A DNA stretch of 64,000 nucleotides from Lentisphaeria bacterium (GTDB lineage: Bacteria > Verrucomicrobiota > Lentisphaeria > Victivallales > Victivallaceae), in assembly GCA_017462015.1 (NCBI GenBank), contig JAFTRX010000106.1, positions 1 through 64,000 of the forward strand. Reading direction: 5' to 3'. The notes beneath the pieces were generated by a model that saw nothing but the letters and a program-made list of their open reading frames with translations, searched no databases and was not told where the DNA came from. The translations under genes were made by a program, and so were the position numbers. Each line of letters starts with the position of its first letter. The stretch's first letter is position 1. Positions 53,904 to 59,424 of the stretch are shown here, piece by piece.

Positions 53904-55211
53904 ATGGCTAAAAATCTGAACGATTCCATCCGGATGGAAATCAAAGATGCCGGTGTCTGTACCCGCGAATTCACCTTCTCTGTCAGCGCTGATGATGCAA
54001 AAAGCGAAAGCGCCAAAGTCCTGAACAACATCGCCGGTATGGTTCAGCTCCCCGGTTTCCGCGCCGGCAAAGCTCCTCTCGGCATGGTCAGCAAAAAGTA
54101 CGCTGCCGAAATCGTCGAAGAAGTCCGCAGCCGTTACCTCAGCGCCGCTGTCAACAAAATTGAAAGCGACGACTCCCTCGATCTGCTCTCTTTGCGCATC
54201 ACCAAAATGGACGAAATCAAAGTCAACGAAGCTTGCGAATTTGTCTTTGAAGCCGTTGTCGCTCCGGAATTTGAACTGGGCGATTACAGCGCCATCAAAC
54301 TCGACATCCCCGTTGATGCCGTCACTGAAGATGCCGTCAAAGAACGCCTCGACCTCTACCGCAACATGTACGGAACCTACGCTGATGCCGATTCCGCGGC
54401 TCAGAAAGAAGATATGCTCAAAGTCGATTACAAGGGCGACTTTGAAGTTGCCGAAGATGCTCCGGCTTCTCTGAAACGCCAGATCGAAGCCAAAGACAGC
54501 TTCATGTGGCTCAACGAACCTGAAAACATCCCCGGCGCCATCGAAGCTCTCACCGGTGCTGAAGTCGGCAAAGAGTACAGCTTCACTGCCAACTATCCCG
54601 CCGATTACCGCGAAGAAGCCCTCGCCGGCAAGAGCGTCAACTACACCGTCAAAGTCAACGCCATCCAGCGCCGCAAAGCTCTGACTGACGAAGAACTTAT
54701 CGCCCGCACCAACTCCGAATCCATGGACAAGCTCACCGACAACATCCGCAAGAGCCTCGAAGGTGATGCCGAGCAAAAACGCCGTCAGGATGCGGTCGAA
54801 GCCTACTACAAGAAACTCGATGAAAGCGTTGCTCAGTTCGATCTGCCCGCTCTGCTCGTTGACAGCGAGATCCAGAAGGCTCTGGAACGTCTCGCCCGCG
54901 AAACCGTCAAAGACGAAGCCGATGCCGAAAAGTTCAAAGCTGAACTCGACAACCATCGCAAAGCCGTCGAAGCTGATGCCCGCGCCGCCGTCCGCCGCCA
55001 GCTCATCCTCCGCAAGGCTGCCATTGCTGAAAAGGTCGAAGTTTCCGACAACGAACTCGATTTCCAGCTCAACATGATGAGCCGTTACTACGGTTTCAAC
55101 GCCAAAGAGATGCGCTCCACTCTGGAGAAGAATGGCGGCATCGATGAACTGCGTTCCGATCTTATCAACGGCAAAGTGCTGGAGAAACTCGCAACTGCTG
55201 CTCTCAACTGA
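53904..55211 (+). CDS. tig: Trigger factor
   Basis: 435 residues. Ribosome-binding N-terminal domain with the signature GFRAGKAPLGMV near residue 50, a central FKBP-like PPIase domain (about 160-245; LKVDYKGDFEVAE), and the helical C-terminal chaperone arms rich in Lys, Glu and Ala. It folds nascent proteins. The order tig-clpP-clpX is the standard one. Codon use is strongly biased (AAA/GAA/CTC/GCC), as expected for high expression. Confidence 0.96.
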   Translation: MAKNLNDSIRMEIKDAGVCTREFTFSVSADDAKSESAKVLNNIAGMVQLPGFRAGKAPLGMVSKKYAAEIVEEVRSRYLSAAVNKIESDDSLDLLSLRITKMDEIKVNEACEFVFEAVVAPEFELGDYSAIKLDIPVDAVTEDAVKERLDLYRNMYGTYADADSAAQKEDMLKVDYKGDFEVAEDAPASLKRQIEAKDSFMWLNEPENIPGAIEALTGAEVGKEYSFTANYPADYREEALAGKSVNYTVKVNAIQRRKALTDEELIARTNSESMDKLTDNIRKSLEGDAEQKRRQDAVEAYYKKLDESVAQFDLPALLVDSEIQKALERLARETVKDEADAEKFKAELDNHRKAVEADARAAVRRQLILRKAAIAEKVEVSDNELDFQLNMMSRYYGFNAKEMRSTLEKNGGIDELRSDLINGKVLEKLATAALN

Positions 55212-55271
55212 GTGCAGCAGTAACCGTCAATTCCGGGGCTGAACAGGGGCATAACACCAATGGAGAAGAAA

Positions 55272-55880
55272 ATGACTTCACTCAAATCTTATCTGGTCCC
55301 GACGGTCATTGAACAGACCAGTCAGGGAGAACGTGCATTTGACATTTACAGCCGCCTCCTCAAGGATCGTATCGTTTTGCTCGGTACCCCGATTGACGAT
55401 GCTGTGGCTAATCTGGTCATCGCTCAGCTGCTCTTTCTGCAGGCAGAAGACCCCAAAAAAGATATTGAACTTTACATCAACAGCCCCGGCGGTTCTGTGA
55501 CCGCCGGTCTGGCGATTTATGACACCATGCAGATTTTGTCCTGCGATGTCAAAACCTACTGTCTCGGACAGTGCGCCAGCATGGGCGCGGTTCTGCTTGC
55601 CGCCGGTGCCGCCGGAAAACGTTACGCCCTCCCCAACAGCCGGATCATGATCCATCAGCCCTGGGGCGGTGCGGAAGGCACTGCCGCCGACATCAGTATC
55701 CAGGCCAAAGAGATTCTCCGCCTGAAAGCGATGCTCAACAATATTCTGTCCAGTCATTCCGGACAGCCGCTCAAAAAAATCGAAAAAGATACTGAGCGTG
55801 ACTTTTTCATGAGTGCAAAAGAGGCAGTGGAGTACCATCTGGTCGACAGTGTCATCTATCCGAAAAAGAACGACAAGTAA
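55272..55880 (+). CDS. clpP: ATP-dependent Clp protease proteolytic subunit
   Basis: 202 residues from the ATG at 55272 (GGAG at 6 nt; an ATG four codons upstream lacks one). The serine protease triad is intact: Ser103 in GQCASMGA, His128 in [10 protein letters not shown] and Asp173 in KDTERD. The N-terminus [20 protein letters not shown] is typical of processed ClpP. It pairs with ClpX, encoded 22 bp downstream. Confidence 0.97.
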
Positions 55881-55902: not shown

Positions 55903-57198
55903 ATGGCAAACAATAAAGAAAAAATCCAGTGCGCGTTTTGCGGTCAATCCCCCAGTTCCAAGAAGAAAGATCTCTTTTTCCTTCCCAGTATGTACGAGGG
56001 GTTGAGCATTTGTACAGAGTGTCTGGAGAAAGCAAACTCGTTTCTCAACGATGCTGCCGCCGCGAAAAACGCCCGCAAAGATGATGCCACTGCCGCATAC
56101 ATCCGCTCACTCAAAGTGCCGACCCCGGTCGAAATAAAAGCGGAACTTGACCGTTGCGTTATCGGTCAGGAGTCGGCAAAAAAAGTTTTATCGGTTGCAG
56201 TGCATAACCACTACCACCGGTTGAAAAGCCGTCTCTCCGGAGTGGCGGATGCCCTGCCGGAAGAATTGAAAGAGGTGAAGCTCGACAAAAGCAACGTGTT
56301 GCTCCTCGGTCCTACCGGAAGCGGTAAGACGCTGCTCGCGCAGACCCTTGCCAATATGCTGGATGTTCCCTTTGCCATCGCGGATGCCACCACGTTGACT
56401 GAAGCCGGGTATGTCGGCGAAGATGTGGAAAACATCCTGTTGCGGCTTTATCAGGCATCCGGCAACGATCTGGAACGTACCCAGATCGGTATTATTTACA
56501 TTGACGAACTGGATAAAATTTCCCGCAAAGGCGAAAATGCTTCCATCACCCGCGACGTTTCCGGCGAAGGTGTCCAGCAGGCTCTGTTGAAGATTCTGGA
56601 AGGAACCGTTGCCAATGTTCCGCCGCAGGGAGGGCGCAAGCATCCCAATCAGGAGTTTATCCATATTGATACCACCAACATTCTCTTTATCTGTGCCGGA
56701 GCATTCGTCGGGCTGGATAAATTAGTCAAACGGCGCAAAGGCAACCGGGTTCTCGGTTTTGACGATGCCGGAAAAAGCGAGATGCCGGAAGAGGACGAAA
56801 GCCGCAATCCGCTCTTGGAGTGCGAGCCGGAAGATCTCGTTCACTTCGGTCTTATTCCGGAACTGGTGGGACGTCTGCCGGTGATCTCCGCCCTCGATGC
56901 ATTGGATAAAGATGCTCTTGTCCGGGTGTTGAGCGAACCGCGCAATGCGCTGACCAAGCAGTACCGCAAACTTCTTGCGTTGGAAAATGTCGATCTCGAA
57001 TTCACTCCGGCGGCACTCGAAGCGATTGCCGAAAAGGCCGTCAAGCGCGGCACCGGAGCGCGTGGTCTGCGCGCTCTGATGGAGGAATTGATGCTTGATG
57101 TCATGTTTGCCGCCCCCGCCGTGAAAGGCAAGGCGCGCTGTATCATCGGGGATGATGCTGTCCGTGGAGAAAATAAACCGCAACTTGTCGACCTCTGA
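55903..57198 (+). CDS. clpX: ATP-dependent Clp protease ATP-binding subunit ClpX
   Basis: 431 residues. The N-terminal zinc-binding domain has CAFCG and CTEC pairs. The AAA+ module has Walker [18 protein letters not shown], Walker [12 protein letters not shown], the pore-loop GYVGED and sensor blocks with [12 protein letters not shown] (the LGF region carries the ClpP-contact loop at about 275-290 in this family). The last 47 bp overlap the kinase gene in another frame. Confidence 0.96.
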
Positions 57199-58258
57199 GC
57201 AGGATTCGCTGGATCAGACGATCATTATTTCTGACACCGGTAACAAAAAAGAGTCTGCCGATGAAAGTTTTGATGCGGTTTCCAAACTTCCGGTGAAATC
57301 GCAGGAACGCTATAAATTCATCCGCAGCATCGGTTTCGGCGGCATGAAAGGCGTTCTGCTTGTCCACGACAAAGATACCGGACGGGATGTTGCCATGGCA
57401 ATCATGCCGGATTTCCGCGACCGCCCCCGCCGGGATTTGAACCGGTTTGTCCGGGAGGCAAATATTACCGCGCAGTTGGAACACCCGAATATCGTCCCGG
57501 TGCATGATATCGGTATCGACGGTTCCGGTTCACCATATTTCACCATGAAATATCTGCGCGGTCAGACACTGGCGATGATTTTGCGCCAGAAGCACAGCGG
57601 CAAAGAAACAACATACGATCTTGACCGGCTGCTGCGGGTGTTGATCCGGGTCTGCAACGCGGTCGCATTCGCGCACAGCAAAGGCATCTGCCATCTGGAT
57701 TTGAAACCCGCCAACATCCATTGCGGTGAATTCGGTGAAGTTCAAGTGCTGGACTGGGGTCTGGCAGCGGCGGAAGATGATGATTTTGACAGCGGTCTGC
57801 TTCAGGGTACACCGGGATATATGTCACCGGAATTCATCCGGTCGGCAGGTAAAGTCCGTCCGGGGCCGGGAGCGGATATTTACGCTATCGGCGCCATACT
57901 TTATGCAATTCTGACCAACGACACCCCCTTCGCCGGTTTGCCGCAGCAGGAGGTTTTGCGCCGTACCGTGGAAGGAAGAATAAAACCGCCATCCAGTCGC
58001 GGTCTCCACATAAACCCCGGATTGGAAGCAATATGTATGAAAGCACTTGCCACAACGCCGGAAGAACGTTACCACAGTGTCATGGAGTTACGTCAGGAGA
58101 TACTCAACTGCATGAACGGATTCCCGACGCAGGCGGAAAATCCGTCAGAATGGCGGCGGGCATCACTCTATATCAAGCGCCACTGGGCTAATATGGTCAT
58201 TGTTCTGCTGGTGATGGTAATAGCAATGTTGACCTTCATCCTGCTGGGACACAAATAA
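57152..58258 (+). CDS. Membrane-anchored Ser/Thr protein kinase with displaced lysine
   Basis: About 368 residues; the exact start inside clpX is uncertain. A 50-residue N-terminal extension precedes a Hanks-type kinase domain. The glycine-rich loop is GFGGMKGV (61-68), the catalytic loop HLDLKPAN (181-188), the metal site DWG (201-203) and the APE motif SPE (225-227). The VAIK motif reads VAMA (80-83): its lysine is replaced by alanine, and Lys66 sits in the glycine-rich loop instead, as in WNK kinases. Glu102 could be the helix-C partner. One C-terminal helix (about 345-363) anchors it to the membrane with almost nothing outside. Coupled to clpX and dxr; targets unknown. Confidence 0.85.
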
Positions 58259-58269
58259 AGGATATCACG

Positions 58270-59424
58270 ATGACGAAAAATAATGTTGCCCTGCTCGGCG
58301 CGACCGGTTCCATCGGTCGCAGTGCGACAGTTGTTTTATCCTGTTACAAAGAGCGTTTCAATGTGCCGCTGGTTGCCGCAAGAAGCAGTATCAAAGAGCT
58401 TGCCGCATGCGCAAAAGAGTTGAATTCGGCAATGGCGCTGACTACAGACAAAGCGTTTTACAGCGAATTATCTGCCGCACTGCCGCAGGGAACGGCGGCG
58501 TTGTCCGGGATGGAAAAGTTGATTGAAGTTGTCTCTTCAGATCAGGTTGATACCGTGTTGTGTGCCATCATCGGAACAGCGGGCATCCGTCCGGTGCTGG
58601 CGGCGATCGAAGCAGGAAAAACGATTGCACTTGCCAGCAAAGAGGTGATGGTCTCTGCCGGAGAATTGGTCAATGCGGCACTGAAAGCCAATCCTCAAGC
58701 CCGGCTGATTCCGGTGGACAGTGAACACTCCGGAGTTTTCCAGTCGCTTGCCGGAAGAGCAAAAAATGAGGTTGAAACGATTATCCTGACCGCAAGCGGC
58801 GGCCCTTTCCGCACCTGGAGCGCAGAGAGAATAGCCAGCGCCACACTCGCGGAAGCACTCAATCATCCGACCTGGAGCATGGGAAAAAAAATCACCATTG
58901 ATTCCGCATCCATGATGAACAAAGCGTTGGAACTGGTGGAAGCGCGTTATCTCTTTGAAGAGTACAATGCCAAACTTGATGTACTTGTCCATCCGCAATC
59001 GGCGGTACATGCATTGATCGAACTTACCGACGGGTCACTCATCGCCCAGTGCGCGATCACCGATATGAAACTGCCGATCGCGTATGCGCTGACCTATCCG
59101 GAACGGGTGACGCTTCCGGCAGCAAAGTTATCTCTTGCCGAAATGGGAAAACTTGAGTTCTTCGCTCCTGACCGAAAACGGTTCCCGGCGTTTGATTTTG
59201 CGTATGCGGCAGTGGAAAGCGGCGGCACACTGCCGTGCGCGATGAATGCGGCAAATGAAGTTGCCGTAGAGCGCTTCTGCGCCGGAGAGATCACCTTCGG
59301 TTCAATTTACCGCATAATTGATAAAGTTATGTCCGATTGGCACAACGAGCCGCAAAAATCCCTGGAGCAGCTCGATGCCGCAGATGCCGAAGCCCGGAGC
59401 AAAGCCCGGGAGGTGAAGTTGTGA
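58270..59424 (+). CDS. dxr: 1-deoxy-D-xylulose 5-phosphate reductoisomerase
   Basis: 384 residues. Second step of the MEP isoprenoid route. The NADPH site is VALLGATGSIGRSA at the N-terminus; ASKEVMVSAGELV, PVDSEHSG with the metal-binding residues, TASGGPF, HPTWSMGKKITIDSASMMNK and AANEVAVERF follow. AAGGA lies 7 nt before the ATG. It overlaps the next gene by four bases (GTGA). Confidence 0.97.
   Translation: MTKNNVALLGATGSIGRSATVVLSCYKERFNVPLVAARSSIKELAACAKELNSAMALTTDKAFYSELSAALPQGTAALSGMEKLIEVVSSDQVDTVLCAIIGTAGIRPVLAAIEAGKTIALASKEVMVSAGELVNAALKANPQARLIPVDSEHSGVFQSLAGRAKNEVETIILTASGGPFRTWSAERIASATLAEALNHPTWSMGKKITIDSASMMNKALELVEARYLFEEYNAKLDVLVHPQSAVHALIELTDGSLIAQCAITDMKLPIAYALTYPERVTLPAAKLSLAEMGKLEFFAPDRKRFPAFDFAYAAVESGGTLPCAMNAANEVAVERFCAGEITFGSIYRIIDKVMSDWHNEPQKSLEQLDAADAEARSKAREVKL

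Follow-up and report, generated by a model that had tools for sequence, protein, structure and literature searches.

A clpX-linked Ser/Thr kinase of a Lentisphaeria bacterium with a WNK-like lysine position represents a large and apparently undescribed clade of bacterial kinases

We analysed a stretch of 64,000 nucleotides from a Lentisphaeria bacterium (phylum Verrucomicrobiota; GenBank assembly GCA_017462015.1, contig JAFTRX010000106.1, positions 1 to 64,000 of the forward strand), referred to here as the window. It holds a protein kinase gene between clpX and dxr. The genes of the locus and the features of the kinase are the following.

53904 to 55211, forward strand: tig, trigger factor (ORF list and synteny).
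55260 to 55880, forward strand: clpP (ORF list and synteny).
55903 to 57198, forward strand: clpX, directly upstream of the kinase ORF and overlapping it by 47 bases (ORF list and conserved synteny).
57152 to 58258, forward strand: the lysine-shifted Ser/Thr kinase, 368 aa (ORF, translation, PF00069, AlphaFold2 model).
57218 to 57220, forward strand: Thr23 codon in the disordered N-terminus, with I, L or V at +3 (Thr in 30/30 orthologues).
57332 to 57355, forward strand: glycine loop GFGGMKGV, residues 61-68 (translation; GFGGMK in 30/30 orthologues).
57347 to 57349, forward strand: Lys66 codon, the lysine proposed as catalytic; it occupies the third Gly of GxGxxG, as in WNK (translation and alignments).
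57398 to 57400, forward strand: Ala83 codon, in place of the invariant strand-3 (VAIK) lysine (translation and alignments).
57455 to 57457, forward strand: Glu102 codon, the alpha-C glutamate and proposed partner of Lys66 (invariant in 151/151 alignment rows).
57692 to 57715, forward strand: catalytic loop HLDLKPAN, residues 181-188, non-RD, with Leu182 for Arg (translation and alignments).
57752 to 57760, forward strand: metal-binding DWG, residues 201-203 (translation and alignments).
58193 to 58249, forward strand: C-terminal membrane anchor, residues ~348-366 (hydropathy; helix 331-365 in the model).
58270 to 59424, forward strand: dxr (ispC), downstream of the kinase (synteny).

The ATG at 57152 lies inside clpX in another frame, the overlap being the last 47 bases of clpX. 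The N-terminal conservation within the overlap is probably due to clpX itself, and the true start of the kinase may be further downstream, e.g., the TTG at 57185 or another codon.

The Pfam Pkinase profile (PF00069) matched residues 54-308 of the kinase with 128 bits (E = 5e-37). The closest fold to the AlphaFold2 model (pLDDT 88) was M. tuberculosis PknB (5u94, Z 32.5, rmsd 1.7 A over 256 residues, 37% identity), also the best match by sequence (151 bits), and by fold and profile the protein belongs with the PknB-like bacterial Ser/Thr kinases. WNK structures were absent among the best 50 fold matches listed, which means only that other kinases rank higher. The likeness to PknB and the PASTA-type kinases has its limits: PknB has the strand-3 lysine (VAVK) and HRD, whereas the window protein has neither of them and has no PASTA domains. 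The earlier note had read from the translation a strand 3 of VAMA (residues 80-83), the loop GFGGMKGV with Lys66, and intact HLDLKPAN, DWG and SPE motifs (the last from S225), and we found all of these as described. Judged by its strand 3 the kinase is a variant, the VAIK lysine being absent and Ala83 present in 30/30 orthologues. We use "shifted" for kinases with the lysine in the glycine loop and none in strand 3; the window kinase is the sole shifted one among the 11 Pkinase matches in its genome.

Lys66, Ala83, Glu102, Asp183, Lys185, Asn188 and Asp201 are identical in 30/30 orthologues (the window kinase included, down to ~50% identity), and the loop lysine with the strand-3 alanine is also found order-wide in more distant relatives. 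The normal arrangement, with a VAIK lysine and no lysine in the loop, had been named beforehand as the observation to look for against a relocation; it occurs in 0 of the orthologues and, within or adjoining the shifted clade, in one distant relative, L101. Judging from these alignments, the loop lysine is conserved and is neither a sequencing slip nor a product of decay. For the more distant homologues we aligned the best kinase ORF per locus from 150 loci picked by overall similarity, the motif being ignored, which gave 142 distinct sequences. The loop lysine without a strand-3 lysine was found in 113 of them and the reverse in 29, with 0 having both and 0 having neither. Position 66 is lysine and position 83 is alanine (112) or glycine (1) in the shifted homologues, and the normal homologues have Gly, Ser or Ala at position 66 and lysine at position 83. 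Glu102, Asp183, Asn188 and Asp201 are 100% conserved in the 151 rows of this similarity-chosen alignment, and Lys185 in 150/151.

An independent count was made with DNA patterns for the four lysine combinations in the same 26 genomes. It gave 218 matches for loop-Lys/strand-Ala (~215 without one duplicate genome), 88 for loop-Gly/strand-Lys and 0 for loop-Lys/strand-Lys; the one match for loop-Gly/strand-Ala was rejected as chance, with no kinase ORF around it. The Fisher value for the table is 1e-78, which is not a count of independent trials, since the shift is close to a single event. With roughly one origin of the trait, the 215:0:0:88 distribution reflects one evolutionary event followed by strong conservation, and the weight of the reciprocity evidence is that of conservation. 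Such exact reciprocity is expected if one lysine replaces the function of the other. Two shifted kinases (L106, L112) have VAKA in strand 3 and so carry, besides the loop lysine, another one immediately N-terminal to the canonical site.

The shifted pattern was detected in 95/388 genomes of the Verrucomicrobiota and the reversed control pattern in four. Lentisphaeria genomes of the window's family usually have one shifted kinase, and the marine Lentisphaera-type genomes G406 (Lentisphaera marina, locus L112), G343 and G243 have 34-43 shifted vs 6-7 normal kinases each. Kiritimatiellae also carry shifted kinases, 22 in Pontiella sulfatireligans, and a few Verrucomicrobiia do, with 2 in Roseibacillus persicicus. 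Shifted vs normal patterns numbered 34 vs 6 in a Lentisphaera and 22 vs 1 in a Pontiella genome. Several larger members of the clade have leucine-rich repeats after the kinase domain. Among 246 Planctomycetota genomes, shifted kinases were found in one, the MAG nwagbin3 (G412, locus L114), with ten copies beside 8 normal kinases, possibly the result of gene transfer or mis-binned contigs. Six further pattern matches in Planctomycetota genomes and one in G411 were chance matches without a surrounding kinase ORF. The single match among 117 Myxococcota genomes (L258) was rejected, its translation alone being the basis for concluding that it is not a kinase loop, and Fibrobacterota, the phylum of a Chitinivibrionales MAG, gave 0 matches in 81 genomes.

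A tree of 121 kinases separates the shifted ones from the others by a single branch (SH-aLRT 94; 1 change), and judging from the sequences the lysine shift seems to have occurred once in this clade. The trait being deep in the phylum, the earlier suggestion of an ancient relocation is right within bacteria. L101 (positions 758-1660 of its locus), a Verrucomicrobia kinase with HLD, GGMG and the normal strand-3 lysine (VAMK), is either an ancestor-like intermediate or a reversal. With all columns it is the sister of the whole shifted clade (SH-aLRT 98), the position of an ancestor-like kinase in which the HRD arginine was lost before the lysine moved. When the trait columns are excluded L101 falls inside the shifted group and 2 changes are counted, as would be the case if the lysine position were reversible and some lineages had gone back to strand 3 after one shift. 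We regard such a reversal as possible, though somewhat short of an even chance; it is a question of history, not of mechanism, and is compatible with the explanation that we favour, namely an active kinase with a relocated lysine.

The lysine move is accompanied by the loss of the HRD arginine. The 122 shifted rows of the similarity-chosen alignment have Leu (108), Phe (13) or Tyr (1) and no Arg at this position, and the normal class keeps the arginine in 22/29. Two shifted kinases that keep the HRD arginine, L171 and L172, were also observed, both from one Verrucomicrobiota family (f70). The replacement of the arginine by Leu or Phe alongside the lysine move would make these non-RD kinases, and since the arginine is replaced, its classic contact with an activation-loop phosphate is probably not the switch. 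Low activity is possible in non-RD kinases. In inactive WNK1 the alpha-C glutamate is paired with the HRD arginine (PMC1821047, Fig. 5 legend), and by analogy we infer that the loss of this arginine may remove one competitor for the alpha-C glutamate in the shifted clade. This coupled loss, the clade as a whole and the dozens of paralogues in some genomes had been overlooked in the earlier note.

The strand-3 lysine is a textbook invariant of protein kinases, and mutating it is the standard way to inactivate them. Its absence, together with that of the HRD arginine, could suggest a pseudokinase, in which ATP would be bound weakly or the protein would serve as a scaffold, with Lys66 retained on other grounds, e.g., to stabilise the loop; of the three motif residues by which pseudokinases are recognised (definition in PMC10211241), one is indeed missing. 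However, the lysine is swapped and not lost, there being 0 homologues with neither lysine, and the HRD aspartate, the asparagine and the DFG aspartate are 100% conserved in the 113 shifted homologues. Thus the motif loss comes with a replacement at a second site and with the other motifs conserved. The pseudokinase families catalogued in bacteria (O'Boyle et al. 2025, PMC12599244) are alike in having an altered strand-3 lysine but, in the part of that paper available to us, they degrade further motifs or change the lysine to Arg or Thr, and ActPs1-3, CP1, GLW, DYD and DLHK differ from the window clade by other motif losses. The same part of the paper describes no family with a glycine-loop lysine and the other motifs intact, and WNK appears there as a comparison only. 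We consider a pseudokinase unlikely.

An active kinase with a relocated lysine has precedents. WNK1, one of the human WNK ("with no lysine") kinases, is active and requires the lysine of its glycine loop (PMC1821047, PMC4718504), and in 2007 the WNKs were described as the sole family of functional ePKs without a lysine in strand 3 (PMC1821047). POMK is the second relocated-lysine case (PMC10211241, PMC5142810): a lysine of the glycine loop/strand 2 likewise serves for the strand-3 lysine, and its return to strand 3 by mutation has a precedent there (PMC10211241), but POMK is an animal sugar kinase with other migrated motifs on an unrelated branch. In CAK-chloro (Kannan et al. 2007, PMC1821047), which is also microbial, a positive charge seemingly moved from strand 3 to the third glycine, as Arg; that family is small-molecule-kinase-like and has Phe for the alpha-C glutamate, whereas the window clade is protein-kinase-like and keeps the glutamate.

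The WNK-like lysine position proposed earlier holds residue by residue, Lys66 corresponding to K233 of WNK1 (GRGSFK233TV), Ala83 to C250 (VAWC250) and Glu102 to E268, with both lysine positions and their spacing matching. The window kinase shares with WNK1-4 the catalytic lysine at the third glycine, the small strand-3 residue (Cys in WNK1, Ala here), the lysine spacing, the alpha-C glutamate, the catalytic aspartate and DxG. The WNK-type arrangement, a third-glycine lysine and no strand-3 lysine, is that of 113/142 homologues, and the alpha-C glutamate, catalytic aspartate, asparagine and DxG aspartate are retained in 100%. The differences are that the window protein is PknB-like by fold and tree, is tail-anchored, as predicted, beside clpX and has HLD, the HRD arginine of the WNK family being replaced by Leu, Phe or Tyr in 122/122 shifted rows, and that no chloride sensing or SPAK/OSR1 pathway is known for it.

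In the tree, the shifted clade does not group with WNK either. WNK1 clusters with PKA, STK3 and CDK2 (SH-aLRT 99), apart from the shifted clade, which nests among bacterial kinases with the normal lysine (SH-aLRT 95-98). The PKA, STK3 and WNK1 sequences were checked against PDB. Since WNK1 lies among the eukaryotic kinases, the lysine move in bacteria looks convergent with that of WNK on the sequences compared, and the relocation postulated as independent is favoured. A single origin of the relocation, with the shifted kinases and the WNKs of eukaryotes linked by common descent or by gene transfer, would account for the identical lysine position and loop-to-strand-3 spacing, and the AU test did not reject the joint grouping (p = 0.16; p = 0.37 without other eukaryotic kinases), but we consider it very improbable given these placements, the best fold match to PknB with no WNK among the 50 best listed, and the HRD kept in WNK vs the HLD of the bacterial clade. 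We conclude that the window kinase is WNK-like at the active site, yet not a WNK.

The clpX linkage pointed out earlier was borne out, the kinase being immediately 3' of clpX in 30/30 orthologues (window included). The order tig-clpP-clpX-kinase was found on named Victivallales contigs, and the dxr-kinase linkage is limited to the closer part of the genus. The kinase had been described as having almost no extracellular sensor, and this fits with its sole hydrophobic helix (~348-366), which ends two residues before the C-terminus. Since this helix is alone and at the extreme C-terminus, the hydropathy and the model suggest that the kinase is probably a tail-anchored cytoplasmic protein that lacks an extracellular sensor. 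The Thr23 site appears to resemble the FHA-binding pTxx[IL] pattern, and the three FHA-domain proteins of the window genome could be readers of phosphorylated Thr23. The N-terminal Thr motif was found in 41/154 shifted kinases, mostly clpX-linked orthologues; it was rejected as a clade-wide feature and belongs to these orthologues.

Taken together, we suggest with a probability of about 0.8 that the window encodes an active tail-anchored PknB-type kinase, in which the lysine has moved from position 83 to position 66 independently of WNK and which is tied to ClpXP and trigger factor. The ATP-phosphate-binding lysine would have been relocated from strand 3 into the glycine loop, where Lys66, standing at the third glycine, would pair with the alpha-C Glu102 and position the ATP phosphates, as K233 of WNK1. 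Roughly a single relocation event is proposed, in an ancestral lineage during the radiation of the Verrucomicrobiota. For the window's family, the gene order suggests that the kinase belongs to the tig-clpP-clpX operon and that, at the membrane, it most likely phosphorylates the proteostasis machinery of ClpXP and trigger factor or shares regulation with it. Thr23 is a candidate autophosphorylation site that would be read by an FHA protein. The catalytic role of Lys66, the kinase activity, the substrates and the role of Thr23 are predicted from sequence and gene order.

By analogy with WNK, the vacated strand-3 site might leave an anion-binding cavity behind the ATP site, so that the shifted clade would be sensors of halide or other anions. 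We regard this as a long shot; if true, it could account for the expansion of shifted kinases in marine Lentisphaera (34-43), and convergent invention would then extend from the lysine shift to ion sensing.

Our search of the open-access literature, which does not cover all papers, yielded no account of a bacterial clade resembling WNK, and this large lysine-shifted clade is apparently undescribed. A bacterial clade hundreds strong and apparently of separate origin indicates that lysine relocation is repeatable, and it provides many natural sequences for probing what permits relocation, here the coupled loss of the HRD arginine. Motif-based scans would misfile the shifted kinases as pseudokinases. 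In the window's family, the strict clpX linkage points to phosphorylation as an unstudied input to the ClpXP protease.
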